A stretch of 39,965 bases of DNA from an uncultured Roseiflexus sp. (lineage in GTDB: Bacteria; Chloroflexota; Chloroflexia; Chloroflexales; Roseiflexaceae), in NCBI GenBank assembly GCA_937935075.1, contig CALGYB010000054.1, forward strand, positions 1 through 39,965. The letters are read 5' to 3'. The notes under the pieces were generated by a model that was not told the DNA's origin, did not search any database, and saw nothing but the letters and a program-made list of their open reading frames with translations. The translations under genes and the position numbers were made by a program. Below, piece after piece: positions 11,213-28,283 of this stretch; positions within the stretch are counted from its first letter, which is position 1, and the number at the start of each line of letters is the position of its first letter.

Positions 11213-11560
11213 CACTGCAAAAAGGCTTAACCGCCAAGGACACGAAACGCACGAAGGGGAAGAACCATGAAGCGCATTTCCTTCGTGTCCCTTGGTGACT
11301 GCGTAACGCGAAATGTATTCCGCCCGTCTGCCGATAGATAATGAAGCGCATGTCCTTCGTGTCCCTTGGTGACCTTCGTGGTCAGGCTTCACCGCCAGGG
11401 ACCCGAAGCGCACGAAGGGGAAGAACCATGAAGCGCATTGCCTGGGTGTCCCTTGGTGACTGCGTAACGCGGAATGTATTCCGCCCGTCTGCTGATAGAT
11501 AATGAAGCGCATGTCCTTCGTGTCCCTTGGTGACCTTCGTGGTTACAGCTTTTTGCAGTG
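11213..11560. mobile_element. Non-autonomous repeat element with terminal inverted repeats
   Basis: The left end CACTGCAAAAAGGCTTAACC (11213-11232) and the right end at 11541-11560 are inverted repeats matching at 17 of 20 positions. Between them is a 161-bp unit present twice in tandem (11223-11383 and 11384-11544), built of shorter motifs such as CCTTCGTGTCCCTTGGTGA. It encodes nothing credible. Its form is that of a MITE-like or expanded palindromic repeat. Confidence 0.6.
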
Positions 11561-13704: not shown

Positions 13705-14235
13705 ATGTATTGGCGGTCACGTGTTATTCGATATGCGGTTGTCCCTTCCGCCTTTGGGCATATGCTGGCGGCGACGACTGAACATGGCATCTGTGCGGTT
13801 GCGCTCGGCGATGATCCGGCGATGGTGATCGCCGATCTGTCGCGTGCATTCAGCGATGCAACCCTCGATCCGGAGGAACGTCCTCTCAACGACTGGATAG
13901 ACGCCCTGCTCGACTATCTGCGCGGCGAGCGGACGAATCTCGATCTGCCGCTCGATGTGGCGGCAACACCGTTTCAGCGGGAAGTCTGGAACGCACTCCG
14001 CGCCATTCCTTACGGCGAAACACAGACCTATCAGCAGGTGGCGCAGCGGATCGGGCGTCCACACGCAACGCGCGCCGTGGCGCGGGCTTGCGCCAGTAAT
14101 CCGGTCGCGCTGATTGTGCCGTGCCATCGTGTTGTGCGCGCCGATGGCGCGTCGGGCGGGTATCGCTGGGGGGTGGAACGAAAACGCGCCCTGATCGCGC
14201 ACGAGGCGGCGCATATTAAACTTTGTGCATCTTGA
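13705..14235 (+). CDS. ogt: Methylated-DNA-[protein]-cysteine S-methyltransferase
   Basis: A 176-aa suicide DNA repair enzyme that moves the methyl group from O6-methylguanine to its own Cys. The active-site motif is IVPCHRVVRADGASGGYRWG. The helix-turn-helix (ETQTYQQVAQRIGRPHATRAVARA) carries the conserved Arg that flips the base. The N-terminal part (GICAVALGDDPAMVIADLSR) resembles the C-terminal half of Ada. The ATG is 1 base after the preceding stop, which suggests read-through coupling with the surface protein gene. Its stop codon overlaps the -35 box of the nuo promoter. Confidence 0.95.
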   Translation: MYWRSRVIRYAVVPSAFGHMLAATTEHGICAVALGDDPAMVIADLSRAFSDATLDPEERPLNDWIDALLDYLRGERTNLDLPLDVAATPFQREVWNALRAIPYGETQTYQQVAQRIGRPHATRAVARACASNPVALIVPCHRVVRADGASGGYRWGVERKRALIAHEAAHIKLCAS

Positions 14236-14259
14236 CACAAGTCTGGAAGGGCGTATAAT
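14232..14259 (+). promoter_or_regulatory. Perfect consensus sigma-70 promoter of nuoABCDE
   Basis: TTGACA (14232-14237), 16 bases, TATAAT (14254-14259). The -35 box overlaps the ogt stop codon. The nuoA start is 86 bases downstream of the -10 box, leaving a GC-rich leader with a small GCCGC-TGT-GCGGC hairpin. Confidence 0.85.
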
Positions 14260-14344
14260 GCCATACATCCGCGCAGAGAGGCGCAGTTAACGCCGCTGTG
14301 CGGCGCATGCGCCCTGCTTGCTCCGTAACAACGAGGAACCATTG

Positions 14345-14701
14345 ATGCTGATCGACTACCTGCCGATCCTGACGCTGTTCCTGGTGGCGATGTTCATCGC
14401 CGTCTTCGTGATCGTGCTGTCGCGCTACCTGGGACCGCAGCGCCCAAGCCGGCGCAAGTTGATGCCGTATGAGTCGGGCATGGAGCCGATCGGTCCGGCA
14501 CAGCGTCGTTTCCCGATCAAGTTCAACCTGGTGGCGATGCTGTTCATCCTTTTCGACATCGAGATCATCTTCCTTTTTCCCTATGCGCTGGTCTACCGGC
14601 AACTCGGCGTTCCAGGGCTGGCGGTCATGGGAGTGTTCTTCCTGGTGCTGGTGATCGGCCTGGTGTATGAGTGGCGGCGAGGAGCGTTGCGATGGGAATA
14701 G
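14345..14701 (+). CDS. nuoA: NADH-quinone oxidoreductase subunit A
   Basis: A 118-aa membrane subunit of complex I with three transmembrane helices. Family marks are the loop [20 protein letters not shown] and [20 protein letters not shown], where the acidic residues in FDIEIIF are near-invariant. The ATG at 14345 has a GAGG upstream; an earlier in-frame ATG at 14318 is less likely. The stop overlaps nuoB by 10 bases. First gene of the operon. Confidence 0.95.
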
Positions 14702-15195
14702 AGCAGAAAGCAGGCGACATGGGGATTGTCACCGCCTCGCTCGAGCAGGTGGTGAACTGGAGCCGTTCCAACGCGATGTGGCCCCTGTTGTTCGGGCTGG
14801 CGTGCTGCGCCATCGAAATGATGGGCGCGCAGAGTGCGAACTACGACCTGTCGCGGTTTGGCATGGAGATCAACCGCGCGTCGCCGCGTCAGGCGGACCT
14901 GATGATCGTCGCGGGGCGTGTGTCGCGTAAGATGGCGCCGGTGGTGCGCCGCCTCTACGATCAGATGGCGGACCCGAAATGGGTCATTGCCATGGGTGAT
15001 TGTGCAGCATGCGGCGGTGTGTTCAACAATTACGCCATCGTTCAAGGGGTCGATGAGATTGTGCCGGTCGATGTGTATGTCGCCGGATGCCCGCCACGCC
15101 CCGAAGCATTGATCGACGGCATTATCCATTTGCACGAGAAAGTCCGACGGATGCGGCTCGACGGTACGCTGCGTGAGCCGGTGCACCTGTCGTAG
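14692..15195 (+). CDS. nuoB: NADH-quinone oxidoreductase subunit B
   Basis: A 167-aa peripheral-arm subunit that holds the last [4Fe-4S] cluster (N2), which passes electrons to quinone. All four cysteine ligands are present: the tandem pair in [10 protein letters not shown], the Cys in GDCAACGG, and the Cys in [18 protein letters not shown] (14680-14684 region) lies 8 bases before ATG 14692, confirming the start inside the end of nuoA. Confidence 0.97.
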
Positions 15196-15275
15196 ACGAA
15201 ACAATGCCGGGTGCGGCATCCTGCAGGTATGCGCAGCGTGACCCGCTGCCCGGCGCCGATGCCAGGAGAACGATC

Positions 15276-15800
15276 ATGGCACTCGATAATCGAACCGTCC
15301 TGGCGCGATTGCAGGCGGCGCTGCCTGATGCCATCCTCAGTTCGTCAGAGTTTCGCGGTGATCTGAGCGTGTATGTTCGCCCGGAACGGATCGTCGATGT
15401 TGCGCGCTTTCTGCGCGATGACCCTGAGTTGCGCTACAATTTCCTCGAAAACCTGTGCGGCGTCGATTATCTTGGTCGTGAGCCGCGCTTCGAGGTCGTC
15501 TATCATCTGCTGTCGTTCGCCAATCGCCACCGGCTCTGTCTGAAAGTCGGCGTCAGCGAACGCGACCCGTCGGTCCCATCGCTGACGGAACTCTGGCCCG
15601 GCGCCAATTACCACGAGCGAGAGACGTTCGATATGTTTGGCATCACGTTCACGGGTCATCCCTGCCTTGATCGGATTCTGATGCCGGAGGAATGGGAAGG
15701 TCATCCGCTGCGGAAAGATGTGCCGCTCGGCGCCGAAGAAGTGGCGTTCACCTTCAACCAGGACCGCATCTACGCGCACAAGCCGTTTGCAAAGGAGTAG
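15276..15800 (+). CDS. nuoC: NADH-quinone oxidoreductase subunit C
   Basis: A 174-aa peripheral-arm subunit (30-kDa type). The family signature is [38 protein letters not shown] 15276 has AGGAGA upstream; the frame is open earlier but the added residues are not family-like. nuoC and nuoD are separate genes here, not fused as in enterobacteria. nuoD starts 6 bases after the stop. Confidence 0.95.
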
Positions 15801-15806
15801 GCAGCG

Positions 15807-17060
15807 ATGACGGTCACCGAAACCCGTGCGCGCAACCTGAGCATCCCCGCCCCCAGCCAGATCACCCGCCCGGCGCTCGAAGGGGCGAAAGAAACCATGG
15901 TGCTGAATATGGGTCCCCACCATCCCAGCACCCATGGCGTGCTGCGGCTGGTTGTCGAACTCGATGGCGAAACCGTGGTTGATACGGCGCCCGACATCGG
16001 GTATCTGCACACCGGCATTGAAAAAACGATGGAGAGCAAAACGTACCAGAAAGCCGTGGTGCTGACCGACCGCACCGATTATCTGGCGCCGCTCTCCAAC
16101 AATCTGAGTTATGTGCTGGCAGTCGAGAAACTGCTCGGTTGCGAGATCCCCGAGCGTGCAACCGTCGCGCGTGTGCTGCTGGTCGAACTGCAACGCATTG
16201 CCAGTCATCTGGTATGGCTCGGCACCCACGCGCTCGATCTGGCGGCAATGAGCGTGTTCCTCTACGGCTTCCGCGAACGTGAACAGATTCTCGACATCTT
16301 TGAACTGGTCTCGGGCGCGCGCATGATGACCAGTTATTTCCGCGTCGGCGGGCTGGCGTATGACCTGCCGGCCGAATTCGACGCCGCCGTTGAGGCGTTC
16401 CTGCAGATCATGCCGGGACGCATCGATGAGTATGAAGCCCTGCTGACCGACAATCCGCTCTGGATCGAGCGCACGCAGGGCATTGGCGCCATTGACAGCG
16501 ATGCAGCGATTGCCCTGGGATTGACCGGACCTGGTCTGCGCGCGACCGGCGTGGCATGGGACCTGCGCAAAACCATGCCCTACTGTGGCTACGAAACCTA
16601 CTCGTTTGCCATCCCCACTGCTACCCACGGCGATATTTACGACCGCTACCTGGTGCGCATGGCGGAAATGCGCGAGAGCGTCTCGATCTGCCGTCAGGCG
16701 TTGCAGCGGCTGCGTGATATTGGTCCTGGACCGTACATGACGCCGGATCGCAAGATTGCGCCGCCGCCAAAGAGCGAGATCACGCACAGCATGGAAGCGC
16801 TCATCCATCATTTCAAGTTGTGGACCGAGGGCTTCAAGCCGCCGCGCGGCGATGCGCTGGCGGCGGTCGAGTCGCCGCGCGGCGAACTGGCGACCTATAT
16901 CGTCAGCGATGGCAGCGCGAAACCGTATCGCGTCCATTTCCGCGCGCCCTCTTTTGTCAATCTCCAGTCGCTGCCGCATATGGCGCGCGGGCATCTGGTC
17001 GCCGATCTGGTGGCCCTCATCGCCTCGCTCGACCCGGTGCTCGGCGAAGTTGATCGCTGA
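15807..17060 (+). CDS. nuoD: NADH-quinone oxidoreductase subunit D
   Basis: A 417-aa 49-kDa-type subunit that shapes the quinone pocket with NuoB. The N-terminal loop NMGPHHPSTHGVLRLVVELD holds the conserved quinone-site His. Other marks are the helix EKLLGCEIPERA, the region LLVELQRIASHLVWLGTHALD, and the C-terminal SLPHMARGHLVADLVALIASLDPVLGEVDR. AAGGAG precedes the ATG. Length is standard for an unfused NuoD. Confidence 0.97.
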   Translation: MTVTETRARNLSIPAPSQITRPALEGAKETMVLNMGPHHPSTHGVLRLVVELDGETVVDTAPDIGYLHTGIEKTMESKTYQKAVVLTDRTDYLAPLSNNLSYVLAVEKLLGCEIPERATVARVLLVELQRIASHLVWLGTHALDLAAMSVFLYGFREREQILDIFELVSGARMMTSYFRVGGLAYDLPAEFDAAVEAFLQIMPGRIDEYEALLTDNPLWIERTQGIGAIDSDAAIALGLTGPGLRATGVAWDLRKTMPYCGYETYSFAIPTATHGDIYDRYLVRMAEMRESVSICRQALQRLRDIGPGPYMTPDRKIAPPPKSEITHSMEALIHHFKLWTEGFKPPRGDALAAVESPRGELATYIVSDGSAKPYRVHFRAPSFVNLQSLPHMARGHLVADLVALIASLDPVLGEVDR

Positions 17061-17086
17061 AACCTGAAAGAACACGAGAACCTTGT

Positions 17087-17611
17087 ATGTCCCTGACCGA
17101 AAAATACGGCGCCGAGATCGAAGCGATCGTGGCGCGTTACCCCCACAAACGCAGCGCGGTTCTGCCGTTGCTCTTCATTGCCCAGGATGAGTATGGGTAT
17201 CTGACCGATGCAGCCATGCGCGAAGTGGCGGATCTGCTCGACATGCCGCCAACCGATGTGTTCGAGGTTGCCGGTTTTTACTCGCTGCTGTATAAACAGC
17301 CGGTCGGCAAGTGGGTCTTGCAGGTGTGCGATGATGTGCCGTGCGCCTTTTGCGGCGCCGAGGACCTGATCGCCGCGCTGCAAGCGCAACTGGGCATCGC
17401 TGTGGATCAGACGACGCCCGACGGCATGTTTACGCTGCAACGGGTCAAATGCCTGGCGGACTGCGATCACGCGCCGGTGTTACAGGCGAACCTGGAGTAC
17501 TACCACAACCTGACCGCGCCAGAGCACGTCGAAGCCGTGCTGGCGGAACTCCGACGGCGCGCAGAGTCTGGCGAGCAACTCAGCATTTCGGGGCGGTACG
17601 CAGACCGGTAA
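17087..17611 (+). CDS. nuoE: NADH-quinone oxidoreductase subunit E
   Basis: A 174-aa thioredoxin-fold subunit with a [2Fe-2S] cluster. The ligand pattern is CDDVPC (C-x4-C) and CLADC (C-x3-C). It normally works with NuoF (FMN, NADH site), but nuoF does not follow: the operon passes directly to a P-type ATPase gene. The remaining nuo genes must be elsewhere if a full enzyme is made. The ATG is at 17087, 26 bases after nuoD. Confidence 0.93.
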   Translation: MSLTEKYGAEIEAIVARYPHKRSAVLPLLFIAQDEYGYLTDAAMREVADLLDMPPTDVFEVAGFYSLLYKQPVGKWVLQVCDDVPCAFCGAEDLIAALQAQLGIAVDQTTPDGMFTLQRVKCLADCDHAPVLQANLEYYHNLTAPEHVEAVLAELRRRAESGEQLSISGRYADR

Positions 17612-17630
17612 CCTGTTTGCGAGGAGCGTC

Positions 17631-20420
17631 GTGTCGGACCACTCGCTCGATCAGCTTGCGGCAATGTCGCCGCTCGAAGTTTGCGCCGCGCTGCAGACCG
17701 CGCCTCACGGCCTTGATGAAGCCGAGGCGCGTAAACGCCGTGAACGCTACGGACCCAACGCGATTGCCGATACCCTGTCGGTCTCTACGCTACGCCGTCT
17801 CATCGCGTCGTTCACCAACTGGATTTCGCTGATCCTGTTGATCGCCGGCCTGCTGGCGTTTCTCAGCGATACGCCGATCATTGGCTGGATCATCCTGGTC
17901 GTCGCCCTTCTCAACGGAATCTTCACCGCCTGGCAGGAATATCTCGCCGAACGCGCCATCGCCGCACTCCGTCAACTGTTGCCGGCAAACGCCTATGTGC
18001 GTCGCGCCGGGCAGGTGCGCCAGATTCCGACGACAGAGGTCGTCCCTGGTGATATTCTGCCCCTGAAACCGGGCACAGTCGTGGTCGCAGACGGCTACCT
18101 TATCTCCAGCGATGGGTTGCGCGTCAAGCAGACCGCACTAACCGGCAATGCCGCGCCGGTCACTAAAGTGGCCGGCGCCATGCCCGATCCGACGCTGGCG
18201 CTGGCGGAACGCCCCAATATTCTGCTGGCGGGTACGGTCGTGTTCGAGGGGCAGGGCAGCCTAGTCGTGGTGCATACCGGTATGCAGACCCTGCTGGGCA
18301 CGATTGCCGAAAGCACTGCGGCGCTGCGCGCCGAGCCAAGCCCGCTGGGGCAGGCGTTGAACGCCCTTGCCGCCACGATAACCCGTGTCGCAATTGTCGC
18401 CGGTATTGGCGCGTTCCTGTTGACCGTTCTGGGACAACAGTTCTCCATTCAGGCCGGCATCATTTTTGCCATCGGCATGATCGTCGCGTTTGTGCCGGAA
18501 GGGCTGTTGCCGACGGTCACGCTGGCGCTGGCGCTGGCGCGGCGGCGCCTGGCGCGCTATGGGGTGCTGGTGCGACGGCTGGCAGGAGTCGAAAGTCTGA
18601 GTTCGGCGACGGTGTTGTGCCTTGATCGGGTTGAGACGCTGACCACCAATGCGCTGACGGTCAACACCATCTGGGCTGGCGGGCGGGTCTACACCACGAC
18701 CGGCAGCGATTATCGACCGGAGGGTGCGTTTCTGCACGAACGCGCCCTGGTGCGGGTGTCATCAGATCCCGACCTGACGGCAGTGTTGCGGGCTGCGGTG
18801 TTGTGCAACAACTCGCGTCTGTTGCCGCCTGACGCCACCAATCCCGACTGGCACATCGTCGGTGATTCATTGGAAGGCGCGCTGCTAGCGACCGCAGCGC
18901 GCGGCGGCATCACTGAAGCAACCATTGGCAACTGCGTGGTGCGCGTGCAGAGTTTCCCGTATGAGCCACGCCGCCAGCTTGGCAGCGTGATCGTGTCGCT
19001 CGAAGCCCACGGTAAACGCGAACTGGTGGCATATGTGCGCGGCGCCGGTCGTGTTGTGCTCTCGCTCTGCGCATCCATCCAGCGCCGGGGGGCGGTCACG
19101 ACACTGGATGAAACCACACGGCGGGAAATCGAACAAGTCATTGACAATTACGCCCGCACCGGTCAGCGTGTGGTCGCCTTTGCCATGCGGATACTCGAAG
19201 AGCTGCAGGAAGGGATGATGTGGCGCGCGCGCGATATTGAACACGACCTGACCTTTCTCGGTTTCGCTACGCTCCAGGAACCGCCACAGCCAGAAGTCGT
19301 CCAACTGATCGAGGGATGCCGTAAGGCGGGTATTCGGGTGATCATTGTCACCGGTGCGTATGGACTGACCACTGAAGCGACCGCACGGCGAATCGGTCTG
19401 ATCGACACGCCACACGTTCAGATTGTGACCGGCGCCGACCTCGACGACATGAGCAGCGCCAACCTCGGGTTGCTGCTTGCGCCGCTGGAAGATGTGGTAT
19501 TCGCCCAAATGGACGCAGCGCATAAGCAACGAATCGTCGAAGCGTTGCAGCAGCGTGGTGAGGTGGTCGCATTTCTTGGTGACAGTATCAACGACGCGCC
19601 GGCGCTGCGGCAGGCGGAAATTGGCGTGGTCGTCAGCGCATCGGGAACGGCAGTCGCGCTGGCTGCCGCCGATATCGTGCTCAACGCGCAACACCCCGCT
19701 GGTCTGCTCCTGGCAATCGAGGAAGGGCGCGCGATCTTCGCCAATATCCAGAAACTCGCCGCGTATGTTTTTGCGCACAATGTCGCCGAAGCCGCCGTGA
19801 TTGTCATCAGTGTCATCGCCGGCATCCCGCTGCCACTGACGGTGTTACAGGTGCTGGCAATTGACGTCGGAACAGAATTGCTGCCGTCGGTCGCGTTGAG
19901 CACCGAACCACCCGAACCAGGCATCCTGGAACAGCCGCCGCGCTCGCGCACCGCGCCGCTGCTCGACCGTGAGACGCTGCTGCGCACCTTCGCTATGCTG
20001 GGCATGCTGGAAGGGGCGCTGGCGTTGCTGGCATTCTTCGCCGCCTACTGGAGCGCCGGGTGGCGACCGGGTATGCCAATGGACGATAGCGGCGACCTCT
20101 ACGCTCAGGCGACGACCCTGGCTTATATGGCGATTGTGATGGCGCAGGTGGGTGTGGCGTTCGCCAGCCGAACGCGCCGGAGTTCGGTGTTTCACATTGG
20201 GCTGTTCACCAACCGGGCGCTGGTGATCGGAACGCTCCTCTCAGTCGTGCTGATGCTGGCGCTGGTGTATATCGAGCCGCTGGCGGAACTTTTCAACTTT
20301 GTTCCGCCACACTCCGAACACTGGATTATGCTGGTCTCCTTTCCGGCGATCATGCTCCTGGTGGACGAAGTCTTCAAGTGGTGGCAGCGACGCCGCCAGA
20401 CGGTACAGTTTGCTTTTTGA
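17631..20420 (+). CDS. P2-type cation ATPase homologue with degenerate catalytic motifs
   Basis: A 929-aa protein with the full P-type ATPase layout: N-terminal segment, A domain, the M4 motif FVPEGLLPTVTLALALARRR, P/N domains, and M5-M10 with IDVGTELLPSVALS like Na/K-ATPases. The catalytic motifs are altered. DKTGT reads DRVET (phosphorylatable Asp332 kept, Lys and Gly lost). TGES reads TGNA (171-174). KGA reads RGA (470-472). TGD reads TGA (574-576). GDGxND reads GDSIND (650-655). The protein probably cannot run the normal pump cycle and may be a regulator or pseudoenzyme. The GTG start at 17631 has GAGGAG 4 bases before it. It lies 19 bases after nuoE. The frame is intact over 2.8 kb, so it is not a decaying pseudogene. 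Confidence 0.9.
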   Translation: MSDHSLDQLAAMSPLEVCAALQTAPHGLDEAEARKRRERYGPNAIADTLSVSTLRRLIASFTNWISLILLIAGLLAFLSDTPIIGWIILVVALLNGIFTAWQEYLAERAIAALRQLLPANAYVRRAGQVRQIPTTEVVPGDILPLKPGTVVVADGYLISSDGLRVKQTALTGNAAPVTKVAGAMPDPTLALAERPNILLAGTVVFEGQGSLVVVHTGMQTLLGTIAESTAALRAEPSPLGQALNALAATITRVAIVAGIGAFLLTVLGQQFSIQAGIIFAIGMIVAFVPEGLLPTVTLALALARRRLARYGVLVRRLAGVESLSSATVLCLDRVETLTTNALTVNTIWAGGRVYTTTGSDYRPEGAFLHERALVRVSSDPDLTAVLRAAVLCNNSRLLPPDATNPDWHIVGDSLEGALLATAARGGITEATIGNCVVRVQSFPYEPRRQLGSVIVSLEAHGKRELVAYVRGAGRVVLSLCASIQRRGAVTTLDETTRREIEQVIDNYARTGQRVVAFAMRILEELQEGMMWRARDIEHDLTFLGFATLQEPPQPEVVQLIEGCRKAGIRVIIVTGAYGLTTEATARRIGLIDTPHVQIVTGADLDDMSSANLGLLLAPLEDVVFAQMDAAHKQRIVEALQQRGEVVAFLGDSINDAPALRQAEIGVVVSASGTAVALAAADIVLNAQHPAGLLLAIEEGRAIFANIQKLAAYVFAHNVAEAAVIVISVIAGIPLPLTVLQVLAIDVGTELLPSVALSTEPPEPGILEQPPRSRTAPLLDRETLLRTFAMLGMLEGALALLAFFAAYWSAGWRPGMPMDDSGDLYAQATTLAYMAIVMAQVGVAFASRTRRSSVFHIGLFTNRALVIGTLLSVVLMLALVYIEPLAELFNFVPPHSEHWIMLVSFPAIMLLVDEVFKWWQRRRQTVQFAF

Positions 20421-20437
20421 GCCATTGCGAGCGACAT

Positions 20438-20872
20438 GTGACCGAACAACGTGCTGCGCCGGCGCGCATTCTGGTCTGCATCAGTGAGGAAGAGCAATCG
20501 CAGGCGGTGATTCGCCATGCTGCGCGGGTGGGGGTTGAACTCGGCGCCGAACTCCTGGCGTTGCATGTCGAGCCGCCGGGCGCCGCCACCCGGCGTCCGG
20601 CGCGCGCTGCGCAGCAACTGGAGCGCAACCTGCGCCTGGCGCGCGACCTGGGCGCCCACGTGCGGGTGATCGACAGTCATCGCGTTGTATCTTCCATCCT
20701 CCAGTATGCGCACGATCACGGCGTGCAACGCATCATCGTCGGCAAGCCGCGCCCACGCACCTGGCGGCACTGGTTCACCGGCGACATTGTGACCCGGCTG
20801 CTCCGTGAGACCGATATTCCCATCGAAGTGGCGCCGGGGATCGCTGAAGAGCAGATCACGGTGGGTGGATAA
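20438..20872 (+). CDS. Universal stress protein (KdpD-like Usp domain)
   Basis: A 144-aa single-domain protein. It resembles the Usp domain of KdpD sensor kinases: ARILVCISEEEQSQAVIRHAARV at the start, LLALHVEPPG in the second strand, and IIVGKPRPRTWRHWFTGDIVTRLLRET, a nucleotide-binding region of the G-x2-G-type, at the end. No kinase domain is present. The GTG at 20438 is the best start; it lies 17 bases after the ATPase stop, so it is the last gene of the nuo-ATPase run. A link to ion or energy stress is inference. Confidence 0.8.
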   Translation: MTEQRAAPARILVCISEEEQSQAVIRHAARVGVELGAELLALHVEPPGAATRRPARAAQQLERNLRLARDLGAHVRVIDSHRVVSSILQYAHDHGVQRIIVGKPRPRTWRHWFTGDIVTRLLRETDIPIEVAPGIAEEQITVGG

Positions 20873-21200
20873 GGGGGGATACGCAGGTCGCCGCTACTTC
20901 CTGCTCGTTTGTACTGGCTCAGAGTGAGGGTGTGCAAGATGCGCTCGCGCCGCTCGAAATCGGTGTTTTGCAACGCGAAGACGCGGAGGCGCAAAGGTTT
21001 TTCTTGGCGTCTTGGGGTTGCGATTTTGAACGCAAAGGCGCGGAGGCGCGAAGGGTTTCCGTGGCGTCTTGGGGTTGCGATTTTGAACGCAAAGGCGCGG
21101 AGGCGCGAAGGGTTCTTGGTGTCTTAGCGTCTTTGCGTTGCGTTTTGGCTACCTGGCGTTGCGATTCTTAACGCGAAGACGCAAAGCCGCCAAGGTTTTT
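20873..21200. repeat. AT/GC alternating repeat block left of the GxxExxY gene
   Basis: No gene. A 57-bp unit with core GCGTCTTGGGGTTGCGATTT occurs at 21006 and again at 21063, with further degenerate pieces. The same core recurs at 21609 on the other side of the GxxExxY gene. Shorter motifs are CGCAAAGACGC and AAGGCGCGGAGGCGC. Confidence 0.8.
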
Positions 21201-21581
21201 TTAGAGACCATTGACCACGCGGTGAATACCATGTTTGACCAATCTTTGCCCAAAGTTGATGACCAGACCAAGTTTCAAGCCGGTCAGCCGCAGATAAGTC
21301 AAAACTTGCGATTCAAAAATCGGATTGTACGTCATCACGGCTTTGCATTCCACAATCACCAGCCCGCCGACAAGCAAGTCGAGCCGCAAGGGGGCGCTGA
21401 TAACCTGTCCTTTATACATCACTGGCACAAGTTTTTCGCGCTCCACTTTTGGACCTCGGCTTTGAATTTCGATTGCCAGCGCGTCGCGGTAAATGCCTTC
21501 GAGTAGTCCAGGTCCGCCCAGCGTGCGATGGACCTCGATGGCCGCGTCCACGATAACCTGACTCAGCGCATTTTCATCCAT
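21201..21581 (-). CDS. GxxExxY protein (PD-(D/E)XK nuclease-like)
   Basis: A 126-aa protein. The family motif is GPGLLEGIYRDALAIEIQ (G-x2-E-x2-Y). The PD-(D/E)XK core is seen as RLDLLVGGLVIVECKAV (Asp ... Glu-x-Lys). ATG 21581 has AAGGAG upstream. Members are common, short, poorly understood, and often sit alone between repeats, as here: blocks of the same repeat lie on both sides. Function may be a nuclease or a mobile-element-linked protein; not known. Confidence 0.85.
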   Translation of the reverse strand: MDENALSQVIVDAAIEVHRTLGGPGLLEGIYRDALAIEIQSRGPKVEREKLVPVMYKGQVISAPLRLDLLVGGLVIVECKAVMTYNPIFESQVLTYLRLTGLKLGLVINFGQRLVKHGIHRVVNGL

Positions 21582-24084: not shown

Positions 24085-24135
24085 CAATGACGGTGCGCAC
24101 GATCACTCCATCACCGCGCAATGCAGGAGGTTCAT

Positions 24136-25302
24136 ATGAGGGTTTTGCTCAAAGGAGTGTCACGTGAGGAAGTGCGAGAACTGATTGCGCTGAACAAGAC
24201 GCCATGGGTCTCGTTGTTTCTGGCGCCCTGTCCGCCTGGTGAAACCATCCAGCGCGCGATTCGACTCGAAAACCTGCTGCGCCGTAGCGAGGCGGACCTT
24301 GAGTCGCGCGGATATGATCGCAATGAGGTGCACGCAATACTGGCGCCGGTATGGAGTCTCACCGACGTGCGATTACTGGAGGAATATCAGGATTCGGGGC
24401 TGGCGTGCTATGTCGCACCGGAAGAGTTTCACCTCCACCGTCTGCCGTATCACGTCAGTGATGGCGTGACGGTTGGTCAGCGGCCCTCTATCAAGCCGTT
24501 GCTCATACCGCGCCCTGCGACCGATTCGTTCTATGTGCTGGCGCTGAGCAAGAATCGCATGCGACTGCTGCATGCCACGCCGTCGGGCATCACCGTCGTA
24601 CCGCTGCCCGATGCGCCCGCCAGCATCGATGATCTGACGCAAACCGATCCGACCGGACGCCAGGCGCAGCGCCATGTCGCTCCTTCGACGCGCGGCGGCG
24701 CCAGTGGCGCAATGTACCCCGGTCACGGCGGCAATGTTTACGACGAAAAGGCCGAGGTGCAACGTTATCTTCAGGCGGTCAGCAGTGCGGTCGAACGCGC
24801 GCTCAACCGGACACGCGATCCGCTCGTGCTGGCAGGCGTCGATTATATGGTGGCGATGTATCGCTCGTTGAACGGCTATGCGCAGGTTATCGACGATCAT
24901 ATCAGCGGCAGTCCCGATCACGTCAGCGATGAGGTATTGTGCGAGCGCGGCGCGCAGGTGCTGACGGCGCACCTGAGTCGCCTTGCAACTGACGAACGCG
25001 ACCGCTTCGAGGCGCTGTTGCAGCACACCCCGCCGCGCGCCAGCACGAACCTGCGTTCGATCCTGCCCGCTGCGCATGCCGGTCGTGTAGCGCGGATTCT
25101 CGTCGCCGGCGACCGGCAGGTGTGGGGACGCTACGACCCCGACGATGAAACGATCTCGCTCCATAATGAGCCGCTGCCAGGTGATGAGGACCTGCTGGAT
25201 ATTGCGGCGCAACAAACGCTCCTTCACGGCGGCGAAGCCGTTGCCGCGCCCGGGGCGGATATTCCCGGCAACAGCGGCGTGGCAGCGGTTTTTCGCTACT
25301 GA
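24136..25302 (+). CDS. baeRF3-type (eRF1-like) protein
   Basis: A 388-aa protein resembling bacterial archaeo-eukaryotic release factor family members. The N-terminal block WVSLFLAPCPPGETIQRAIRLENLLRR matches the family start. The middle has VYDEKAEVQRYLQAVSSAVERAL, and the end GNSGVAAVFRY matches the eRF1-like domain 3 terminus. Such proteins are predicted to act on ribosomes, but their role is untested. AGGAGG at 24125-24130 lies 5 bases before ATG 24136 and inside the frame of an earlier ATG at 24121, so 24136 is the start. Confidence 0.8.
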   Translation: MRVLLKGVSREEVRELIALNKTPWVSLFLAPCPPGETIQRAIRLENLLRRSEADLESRGYDRNEVHAILAPVWSLTDVRLLEEYQDSGLACYVAPEEFHLHRLPYHVSDGVTVGQRPSIKPLLIPRPATDSFYVLALSKNRMRLLHATPSGITVVPLPDAPASIDDLTQTDPTGRQAQRHVAPSTRGGASGAMYPGHGGNVYDEKAEVQRYLQAVSSAVERALNRTRDPLVLAGVDYMVAMYRSLNGYAQVIDDHISGSPDHVSDEVLCERGAQVLTAHLSRLATDERDRFEALLQHTPPRASTNLRSILPAAHAGRVARILVAGDRQVWGRYDPDDETISLHNEPLPGDEDLLDIAAQQTLLHGGEAVAAPGADIPGNSGVAAVFRY

Positions 25303-25560: not shown

Positions 25561-25817
25561 GGTTCCAGGTTTAATCTGACAATGGCGTGCAGAGCGCAAT
25601 CCGTATGAATCCGTCTCAATCCATGAGCATCCGTGAACTATTATCCGCTTTGTTCAACGCGCAACCAACGTGAACTTTCCTTTTCATCCCCTTCTCATCT
25701 TCGAAGCTTTCTGCAAGCGCTTTTCCACCCTCTCTCCATTCCGTTTATACGCGCTGTGGCGTAGACTCAAAGTGACAACGAGCAGTGGCGCGACACCACT
25801 GTAGAAAGGGGAAAACC

Positions 25818-26942
25818 ATGAAACGTTGGACATTTATGCTCACCCTCTTGCTGGCGATGACCGGCGTGCTTGTTGCGGCAGCGCCAGCAAACGCCGCCGA
25901 ACGGCAGCGCTGCTTCCCGGAAACTGGCTACTGCGTCTCCGGCGCAATCCTGCGCTATTGGGAGCGCAACGGCGGTCTGCCGGTCTTTGGCTACCCGATC
26001 AGCGAACTGCGCGTCGAGACGGTTGAGAACTGGACCGGTCCAGTGCAGTGGTTCGAGCGTGACCGCCTCGAAGATCATGGCTCGATCGGCGTTCTTGCCG
26101 GACGGCTTGGCGCGCAGGTGCTCGACTGGCAGGGGCGCCCCTGGCAATCGCTGCCACGCCCAACGTCGATTCCGAAGGGATGCCAGTTCTTCCCGGAGAC
26201 AGGACACACCCTGTGTGGCAAGTTCCTGGACTACTGGCGGCGCAATGGCGGACTGATGCGCTTCGGCTATCCGATCAGCGAGCCGATGACCGAAACGCTG
26301 GCGAATGGCGATGAACTCTGGACTGGCACGGTGCAGTACTTCGAGCGGCGACGCATGGAGTACCATCCGGAACTGGCCGGAACGCGGTATGAAGTGTTGC
26401 TCGGCTTGCTGGGGCGCGACATGTATACGGCGCTCAGCGACCGCTGCGCACCACCGGCGCCGTTCCTCGGACCGACGACGCGCGCCTACCCGGATATCCT
26501 TGGCTGCCCGTCACCCTTCCCGAAACTGGCGTTTCCAGCGGCATCGCAACGCTTCGAGCGCGGCGCCATGTACTGGGTCGCCAATCCCAGCACCATATCG
26601 TCCTGGATAACCGGTAACATCTGGGTGGTGTTCTACGACAACGCGCGCGGGTCGCTCGTCTGGCAACTGCACCCGGATTACTGGCGCGAGGGGGAGCCGG
26701 CAAGCGGTGGCATGACGCCGCCGCCAGGACTGTTCGAGCCGATCCGCGGCTTTGGCAAACTGTGGCGCGAGAACCCGGCCATCCGCGAAACGCTTGGCTG
26801 GGCTGTCGAACCGGAGCAGGCGGATACTGCGGTGGAGCAGTACTTCCGGGGTGGGGCATTTGCCATCTACCGGATGAATAGCGACCGCATCTACATCATG
26901 AAACCGGACAACACGGCTGAGGACATTCAGCGCATTCGCTGA
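25818..26942 (+). CDS. Secreted protein with RCFPETG/LGFP-like repeats, paralogue 1
   Basis: A 374-aa exported protein. The signal peptide is MKRWTFMLTLLLAMTGVLVAAAPANA, cut after ANA. Two repeats follow: RCFPETGYCVSGAILRYWER with NGGLPVFGYPISELRVE, then FFPETGHTLCGKFLDYWRR with NGGLMRFGYPISEPMTE. The FGYPIS core recalls LGFP repeats, which bind cell-wall sugars in other bacteria; this role is inference. A C-terminal module with two Cys and conserved Trp/Tyr follows. An ATG and an AAAGGGG upstream fix the start. A terminator separates it from paralogue 2, which is very similar along its length. Confidence 0.85.
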   Translation: MKRWTFMLTLLLAMTGVLVAAAPANAAERQRCFPETGYCVSGAILRYWERNGGLPVFGYPISELRVETVENWTGPVQWFERDRLEDHGSIGVLAGRLGAQVLDWQGRPWQSLPRPTSIPKGCQFFPETGHTLCGKFLDYWRRNGGLMRFGYPISEPMTETLANGDELWTGTVQYFERRRMEYHPELAGTRYEVLLGLLGRDMYTALSDRCAPPAPFLGPTTRAYPDILGCPSPFPKLAFPAASQRFERGAMYWVANPSTISSWITGNIWVVFYDNARGSLVWQLHPDYWREGEPASGGMTPPPGLFEPIRGFGKLWRENPAIRETLGWAVEPEQADTAVEQYFRGGAFAIYRMNSDRIYIMKPDNTAEDIQRIR

Positions 26943-26964
26943 GCGGTAGAAACGACGAAGGACG

Positions 26965-26993
26965 GGGCGGGCATCCCGTGTGGATGTCCGCCC
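26965..26993 (+). terminator. Hairpin between the two paralogues
   Basis: GGGCGG-G-CATCC (26965-26976), 5-nt loop, GGATG-T-CCGCCC (26982-26993): 12-bp stem with one G-T pair, then TGTGTGTTG. It is a plausible terminator, so each paralogue has its own transcript. Confidence 0.65.
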
Positions 26994-27149
26994 TGTGTGT
27001 TGAAACGCGCCTGTTTCATTGGCATCTCATCCTCGACGCGCCCTGTCAGGACATTGCCATCTTCTCGCTCTTCCTTCGATGCGTACAGTAGCGTAGAATC
27101 AACGTGACAGACGGCAACGGCGCTCTACCACTGCAGAAAGGAGACAACC

Positions 27150-28283
27150 TTGAAACGCTGGACGCTTGTGTTCACCCTGTTGCTGGCAATGACCGGCGTG
27201 CTTGTTGCGGCAGCGCCAGCAAACGCCGCCGAACGGCAGCGCTGCTTCCCGGAAACCGGCTACTGCGTCTCCGGCGCAATCCTGCGCTACTGGGAACGCA
27301 ATGGCGGTCTGCCGGTCTTCGGCTACCCGATCAGCGAACTGCGCGTCGAGACGGTTGAGAACTGGACCGGTCCAGTGCAGTGGTTCGAGCGTGACCGCCT
27401 CGAAGATCATGGCTCGGTCGGGGTTCTTGCCGGACGGCTTGGCGCGCAGGTGCTTGAGTCGCAGGGTCTCTCCTGGCAGTCGCTGCCGCGTCCCGACTCG
27501 GCGCCGCAGGGATGCCGGTTCTTCCCGGAGACCGGTCATTCGCTATGCGGCACGTTTTTGGAGTACTGGGAGCGCAACGGCGGACTGATGCGCTTCGGCT
27601 ACCCGATCAGTGAGCCGATGACCGAAACGTTGCCGAATGGCGATGAACTCTGGACCGGCACGGTGCAGTATTTCGAGCGACGGCGGATGGAGTACCATCC
27701 GGAACTGGCAGGCACCCGGTACGAAGTGTTGCTTGGCTTGCTGGGACGCGATGTGTATACGTTGTATACGTCCGCCAAAGACCGCTGCGCCGCGCCGGCG
27801 CCGCTCCTCGGTCCAACCGTGCGCGCCTACCCGGATATCCTTGGCTGCCCGGCGCCCTTCCCGGCTGTGCTGTTTTCGGCAGCATCGCAACGCTTCGAGC
27901 GCGGCGCCATGTATTGGATTCCCATAGCGCCTTTGTATGCGTGGAGGTATACCGGCAACATCTGGGTGGTGTTCTACGACAACGCGCGCGGCTCGCTGGT
28001 CTGGCAGGTGTATGCGAGCCGCTGGCGCGAAGGGATGCCTGAAAACGGCGGACTGACGCCGCCGCCGGGTCTGTTCGAGCCGATCCGCGGCTTTGGCGAG
28101 GTGTGGCGGAGCGTCCCGTCACTCCGCGAGACGCTTGGATGGGCAGTCGAGCCGGAGCAGGCCGATAGGACTATCATGCAGTATTTCCAGAGCGGCGCAT
28201 ACGTTATCTACCGCGTGAATAGCGATCGGGTCTACATTTTGAAGCCGGATAAAACGGCTGAGGACATTCCACGGATTCGCTAG
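27150..28283 (+). CDS. Secreted protein with RCFPETG/LGFP-like repeats, paralogue 2
   Basis: A 377-aa tandem duplicate of the gene before it, with long identical runs in the N-terminal two thirds and a more varied C-terminal third (insert TLYTSAK near residue 205; PLYAWRYTGN instead of TISSWITGN). The signal peptide and both repeats are kept. The start is TTG 27150 with AAAGGAG 6 bases upstream; paralogue 1 uses ATG. About 65 bases upstream of both genes are also conserved (ACCACTG-AGAAAGG and TCAA-GTGACA blocks), so regulation was copied too. Confidence 0.85.
   Translation: MKRWTLVFTLLLAMTGVLVAAAPANAAERQRCFPETGYCVSGAILRYWERNGGLPVFGYPISELRVETVENWTGPVQWFERDRLEDHGSVGVLAGRLGAQVLESQGLSWQSLPRPDSAPQGCRFFPETGHSLCGTFLEYWERNGGLMRFGYPISEPMTETLPNGDELWTGTVQYFERRRMEYHPELAGTRYEVLLGLLGRDVYTLYTSAKDRCAAPAPLLGPTVRAYPDILGCPAPFPAVLFSAASQRFERGAMYWIPIAPLYAWRYTGNIWVVFYDNARGSLVWQVYASRWREGMPENGGLTPPPGLFEPIRGFGEVWRSVPSLRETLGWAVEPEQADRTIMQYFQSGAYVIYRVNSDRVYILKPDKTAEDIPRIR

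Follow-up and report, generated by a model that had tools for sequence, protein, structure and literature searches.

A single catalytic cycle through an aspartyl phosphate defines the large family of P-type ATPases. As established for SERCA and the Na,K-ATPase, the phosphorylation and dephosphorylation steps require the Lys and Gly of the DKTG motif, the TGD Asp and the TGES Glu. The closest precedent found for the protein described here comes from Plasmodium falciparum, whose PfGCbeta has a degenerate P4-ATPase domain, likewise a P-type module with most of its signature residues gone and with a link to signalling (PMC6592433). PfGCbeta, however, is a eukaryotic protein of the P4 class fused to a guanylate cyclase, whereas the protein under study is bacterial, belongs to P2, stands alone and has a universal stress protein (Usp) as its neighbour. 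A second related system is KdpB/KdpD. In short KdpD, the Usp domain controls the phosphorylation of the actuator Ser in a P-type ATPase (PMC11018627), and the TGES loop is the control point in KdpB (PMC11018627, PMC4686210). The present locus also pairs a KdpD-type Usp with a P-type ATPase, but its Usp lacks the KdpD kinase domain, the actuator Ser is replaced by Ala, and the ATPase is of class P2 and not P1A. Searches of a library of open-access papers turned up no stand-alone pseudo-P-type ATPase from bacteria, and a term search of a 2023 review of open problems in the P-type family gave no match for inactive or degenerate members (PMC10654040).

The window, that is, the whole stretch of 39,965 nucleotides from an uncultured Roseiflexus sp. 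that was analysed, carries this gene downstream of genes for complex I. The features of the region are the following:

14232..14259, + strand: sigma-70-type promoter match TTGACA-16-TATAAT (12/12) upstream of nuoA, a possible operon promoter
14345..14701, + strand: nuoA
14671..15195, + strand: nuoB
15276..15800, + strand: nuoC
15807..17060, + strand: nuoD
17087..17611, + strand: nuoE, separated from the pseudo-ATPase start by 19 bases
17631..20420, + strand: pseudo-P-type ATPase, P2 (P2C-like), 929 amino acids, with a GTG start at 17631 and a stop that ends at 20420
20438..20872, + strand: stand-alone KdpD-type Usp, its likely start 17 bases past the ATPase stop

Changed and retained residues of the pseudo-ATPase

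The initial annotation, made from the sequence of the window, had described 17631-20420 as an intact P2-type ATPase, and this description is borne out. The frame of 929 codons is unbroken while the opposite-strand reading of the same interval is riddled with stops, and Pfam models cover the protein end to end in the P-type order (Cation_ATPase_N, E1-E2_ATPase, N domain, HAD P domain, Cation_ATPase_C). The NCBIfam P2 models score far under their equivalog cut-offs, and the general P-type model alone is exceeded. Since the best matches among solved structures are the alpha chains of the H,K-ATPase and the Na,K-ATPase, the protein is assigned by descent and fold to the P2 class, closest to P2C. 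Membership of the fold is taken from sequence homology, as the AlphaFold model built on an 11-row alignment has a mean pLDDT of 45. An Rfam search of the window gave no match.

The same annotation had listed five altered catalytic signatures, all of which are confirmed within residues 171-655:

18141..18152, + strand: actuator loop TGNA in place of TGES (residues 171-174), the dephosphorylation Glu being replaced by Asn; invariant in 9/9 orthologues that cover the site
18624..18638, + strand: DRVET in place of DKTGT (residues 332-336), drifting among DRVET, DRAET, DRTDN, DRTDH and NRIET
19038..19046, + strand: N-domain RGA in place of KGA (residues 470-472), read as RGA, RGT or RGN in orthologues, with the change of Lys to Arg fixed
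19350..19358, + strand: TGA in place of TGD (residues 574-576), TGA or TGG in every orthologue
19578..19595, + strand: GDSIND in place of GDGVND (residues 650-655), with Gly to Ser fixed and both Asp kept

At the motifs covered, the orthologues agree on TGNA, DR(V/I/A/T)(E/D)(T/N/H)L, RG, TG(A/G) and GDS(I/V)(N/S)DAPAL, with one exception, at the Asp. In genera g3 and g4 the Asn of GDSIND is Ser, and DRVET is replaced by DRTDN or DRTDH. The exception is the orthologue of genome G010 (L013/L038), where the phospho-Asp itself has become Asn (NRIET, codon AAT versus GAT in its relatives) on a contig whose name states a 395-fold coverage. Accordingly, the residue is still Asp in 9/10 orthologues that cover the site. 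None of the signatures by which a functional pump is recognised (the DKTGT motif, the Glu of TGES, and the TGD and GDGxND motifs) is preserved across the clade. Moreover, out of 183 columns that are near-invariant in 37 canonical pumps, 115 are retained in the pseudo-ATPase clade and 18 are fixed to another residue; these replacements include E173N, K333R, K424R, K470R, D550E and R553Q, and also R626Q, G652S, E678A and P723V.

On the other hand, the marks of the fold that had been reported as kept, namely FVPEGL, the M5-M6 block and the P-domain HK, are indeed in place:

18495..18506, + strand: PEGL ion-site motif of M4, kept, its Glu being E290
19524..19526, + strand: P-domain Lys632 (hinge HK/QK), kept in the alignment with orthologues and pumps
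19776..19790, + strand: HNVAE of M5, in which His716 aligns with the Lys site of the H,K-ATPase (Ser in its K-to-S mutant) and the ion-site Asn and Glu are kept
19863..19877, + strand: DVGTE ion-site block of M6, with the first Asp kept and the second Asp replaced by Glu

The protein therefore carries the residues expected of a P2C cation site, PEGL, HN(V/A)AE and ID(V/L)GTE, the second D of M6 being E. M5 retains N717 and E720, and M6 retains D745, with Glu749 at the position of its second Asp. This P2C-like site (PEGL, the N and E of M5, the D of M6) is shared with the alpha subunits of the Na,K- and H,K-ATPases, from which the protein differs in lacking the catalytic set, in having an invariant His in M5 where the H,K-ATPase has Lys, and in that no beta subunit was identified. 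In pumps of the H,K-ATPase type, the Lys position of M5 sets ion stoichiometry. His716 is invariant across the clade, and the aligned position is Lys in ATP12A and Ser in the structure of an ATP12A mutant; given what this position does in the pumps, a titratable residue such as His could act here as a sensor of pH or ions. In addition, several residues of the nucleotide pocket are retained, and with E415, R513, Lys632, Asp651 and Asp655 in place the protein may still bind nucleotide or Mg2+.

Since the Lys and Gly of DKTG, the Asp of TGD and the Glu of TGES have all been replaced, and one species has lost even the phospho-Asp, an ATP-driven cycle is very unlikely, and it is highly probable that the protein is not an ATP-driven pump. 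The opposite reading would be a re-tuned or slow pump that hydrolyses ATP and moves ions with Arg in place of the DKTG and KGA lysines, and that is dephosphorylated without the actuator Glu. The conservative nature of the K-to-R changes speaks for such an enzyme, as do Asp332 in 9/10 orthologues and the retained Lys632, Asp651, Asp655 and ion-site residues. However, no acyl phosphate can form on the Asn332 of G010, the residues around Asp332 vary freely in a loop that does not change in pumps, and Gly335 has changed to Glu or Asp and Asp576 to Ala or Gly at sites that are near-invariant in the 37 pumps, which makes a re-tuned pump unlikely. Some slow or altered phosphoryl chemistry may nonetheless persist outside G010, where the Asp is present in 9/10 orthologues and Lys632, Asp651 and Asp655 are kept throughout.

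Single origin and selection

Whole-genome searches recovered one-to-one orthologues in 10 genomes from four genera of the family, at identities of 56-94%. In Roseiflexus (genus g1) the gene is present in all six genomes searched, namely its own and five others at 88-94% identity. Outside this genus the identity is 79% in g5, 56-57% in two g3 genomes and about 60% in g4, whose orthologue is split over two contig ends. The degenerate motif set is common to the 10 carriers, one of which is a single-contig genome of 5.8 Mb, and because it recurs in 10 genomes of four genera it exceeds what chance or sequencing error would produce. Homologues with normal motifs in the same locus were one of the outcomes that, according to the initial annotation, would refute its reading; no orthologue at the same locus has such motifs.

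The comparison set consists of 37 pumps, among the closest relatives in the phylum after a search of 400 genomes and including a paralogue from the same genome at 43% identity, and 37/37 keep DK[TS]GT, GE, TGD and GDG(V/A)ND. In a maximum-likelihood tree with P2 pumps, also proposed by the initial annotation and obtained here by a quick search without bootstraps, the nine long orthologues form one clade with 100% SH-aLRT support. The stem of this clade measures 1.18 changes per column. A single loss of phosphoenzyme chemistry explains the data, and the pseudo-ATPase has a single origin.

Among the closest known systems are the P2C-like cation ATPases of Chloroflexota, for example the paralogue in the same genome (contig C62, 43% identity). 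This paralogue and the pseudo-ATPase have the same domain order, PEGL motif, M5/M6 block and length, and, by homology, the same fold. In the paralogue, however, DKTGT, GES, KGA, TGD and GDGVND are intact and the phosphorylation loop is invariant, whereas in the pseudo-ATPase the five motifs are changed and the loop is drifting. This stretch of the genome (G000, contig C62:1525-8351, L070) holds two tandem canonical P2 ATPases, 43% and 36% identical to the pseudo-ATPase.

Within Roseiflexus, dN/dS of the pseudo-ATPase is 0.036-0.080 (Nei-Gojobori), which shows strong purifying selection and is not near 1, the other sequence-based outcome that the initial annotation had named as refuting. For the same four species, the whole-protein value is 0.062 for the pseudo-ATPase versus 0.101 for the canonical pump paralogue. 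By contrast, the phosphorylation loop (residues 329-344) has, across the four species, a dN/dS of 0.187 in the pseudo-ATPase but of 0.000 in the paralogue, these being rough numbers from short segments. Sliding windows of 10 residues place the DKTGT equivalent among the most variable 6-11% of the pseudo-ATPase, while it is invariant in the paralogue; the windows over TGNA, PEGL, GDS, M5 and M6 show zero amino-acid change across the seven sequences of g1 and g5. The pattern is that of a phosphorylation loop that has been released while new constraints have become fixed, and not that of general decay. The protein thus combines the features by which pseudoenzymes are generally recognised, namely a kept fold, lost catalytic residues and purifying selection. 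A decaying pseudogene or an assembly artefact would account for the damaged catalytic motifs, but given a dN/dS of 0.04-0.08, the lack of stops and the same motif set in 10 genomes, the single-contig one included, this explanation was rejected and its probability is close to nil. The proposal that selection has maintained the gene for a non-pumping role is, on the other hand, well supported by one origin, four genera, low dN/dS, the released loop and the one loss of the Asp.

Few parts of the protein are as conserved as its membrane core (M3-M4 dN/dS of 0.022). This conservation, with that of the ion-site carboxylates, would also fit a passive ion path, in which the P-type fold has turned into a channel or carrier and the gating is done by ion, nucleotide or Usp. 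A leak at a site of active transport would, however, cost energy unless it were tightly gated, and we consider a passive path unlikely.

Gene neighbourhood and the KdpD-type Usp

The neighbours had been correctly named from the start, with nuoE upstream and a KdpD-like Usp downstream. A promoter scan of 14000-21300 gave the match at 14232-14259 as the sole promoter-like site, one found against 1.7 expected at a looser threshold. In g1 and g5 alike, the genes run nuoA-B-C-D-E, pseudo-ATPase, Usp and form an apparent operon. In g4 the Usp gene directly follows the pseudo-ATPase, but the neighbours are pyruvate kinase and infC-type genes instead of nuo; in g3 the pseudo-ATPase stands near a phosphate-transporter operon without an adjoining Usp (gene names assigned by eye in both genera). 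The genomes of g3 and g4 have nuoE elsewhere. Hence, of the ion/energy link to nuo that the initial annotation suggested, the gene order stands in g1 and g5, while the copies of g4 and g3 lie away from nuo, and an exclusive link was rejected. A role as subunit or assembly factor of complex I, with the old pump fold as scaffold, would suit the conserved order, the short gaps and the one strong promoter match, but it is improbable in view of the same g4 and g3 copies, found away from nuo in genomes that encode nuoE elsewhere.

The KdpD-like Usp is linked to the gene in three of the four genera (g1, g5 and g4) and nuo in two (g1 and g5), which means that the link to Usp is older or more stable than that to nuo. 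Beside the gene in g3 there is no Usp, and a search for a relative of the Usp in G002 and G003 detected none, so it is not an obligate partner there. The Usp most resembles the Usp domain of KdpD. Nevertheless, KdpB above the cut-off is absent from 8/9 genomes tested, including all five Roseiflexus genomes searched, G004 alone having one; the Roseiflexus Usp therefore does not belong to a Kdp system, and the idea of a Kdp remnant was rejected. Diadenylate cyclase is present in 9/10 carriers. The Usp was compared by eye with the c-di-AMP motif of the KdpD Usp, SXS-X20-FTAXY, and the ATP motif G-X2-G-X9-G(S/T) (PMC4686210); it contains neither, reading SEE...LLALH at the former, and both candidates were discarded.

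An inhibitor subunit had also been put forward. As an inhibitory or accessory subunit, the pseudo-ATPase would act on a canonical P2 pump in the same cell, and canonical P2 paralogues do coexist with it in several carriers. However, these paralogues differ between species, and the incomplete drafts G002 (95% complete) and G003 (85%) carry the gene without any other detectable P2 ATPase, their further P-type matches looking like classes other than P2. The suggestion thus found no support where it could be tested; it was rejected, being very unlikely.

Other features of the window were recorded as well. A tandem repeat array of 57-base units lies at 20966-21114, just downstream of the Usp gene, and arrays of 21- and 161-base units occupy 1-169 and 11223-11543, respectively. 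At 21201-21581, between the operon and a menH-like gene, there is a GxxExxY-type PD-(D/E)XK_3 protein (PF13366), a gene with no counterpart close to the orthologues at the other loci inspected. A protein like family 7/3 of baeRF (bacterial archaeo-eukaryotic release factor) is encoded at 24121-25302 and adjoins a phosphoribosyltransferase-like gene. Two tandem secreted proteins with near-identical starts (ERQRCFPETGYCVSGAILRYWERNGGLPVFGYP repeats) are encoded at 25785-26942 and 27150-28283; relatives of this 25785-28283 pair occur within 10 kb of the g3 pseudo-ATPase (L064, L042), perhaps by chance, as such genes may be common.

Possible function and its implications

By descent the protein is a P2 ATPase; by its defining residues, it does not read as a pump. 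It most likely goes back to an ancient duplication of a P2C-like cation pump; the copy would have lost its phosphoenzyme chemistry a single time, in an ancestor within the Roseiflexaceae, and would have been kept since that loss as a non-pumping membrane protein. The transmembrane site may still bind a cation, or sense protons via the invariant His716, and the head may still move on binding ion and/or nucleotide. With the chemical cycle gone, this movement would serve as a signal, its most likely reader being the adjacent Usp, and the Usp would in turn report on ion or energy status or modulate it. In g1 and g5, the apparent co-transcription with complex I genes would match the amount of pseudo-ATPase to the expression of the respiratory chain. 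A non-pumping membrane regulator that senses ions, and perhaps nucleotides, with Usp as partner is a proposal to which we would give an even chance, its sensor mechanism being the inferred part. The more specific form, a stand-alone transmembrane ion or pH sensor that signals through a KdpD-type Usp and is tied to complex I expression, and thus a class of receptor derived from a pump, is put forward tentatively and is the more doubtful of the two.

A clade that strong selection has maintained beyond the loss of aspartyl-phosphate chemistry would amount to a separation-of-function experiment made by nature, showing which parts of a pump (the membrane ion site, the actuator loop, the P-domain core) still serve a purpose once the cycle is gone. 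It would also allow a test of whether the binding of an ion is enough to drive the large head movements that need phosphorylation in pumps. Non-pumping signalling roles have been claimed for the Na,K-ATPase, and the pseudo-ATPase of Roseiflexaceae would provide a bacterial counterpart to them.
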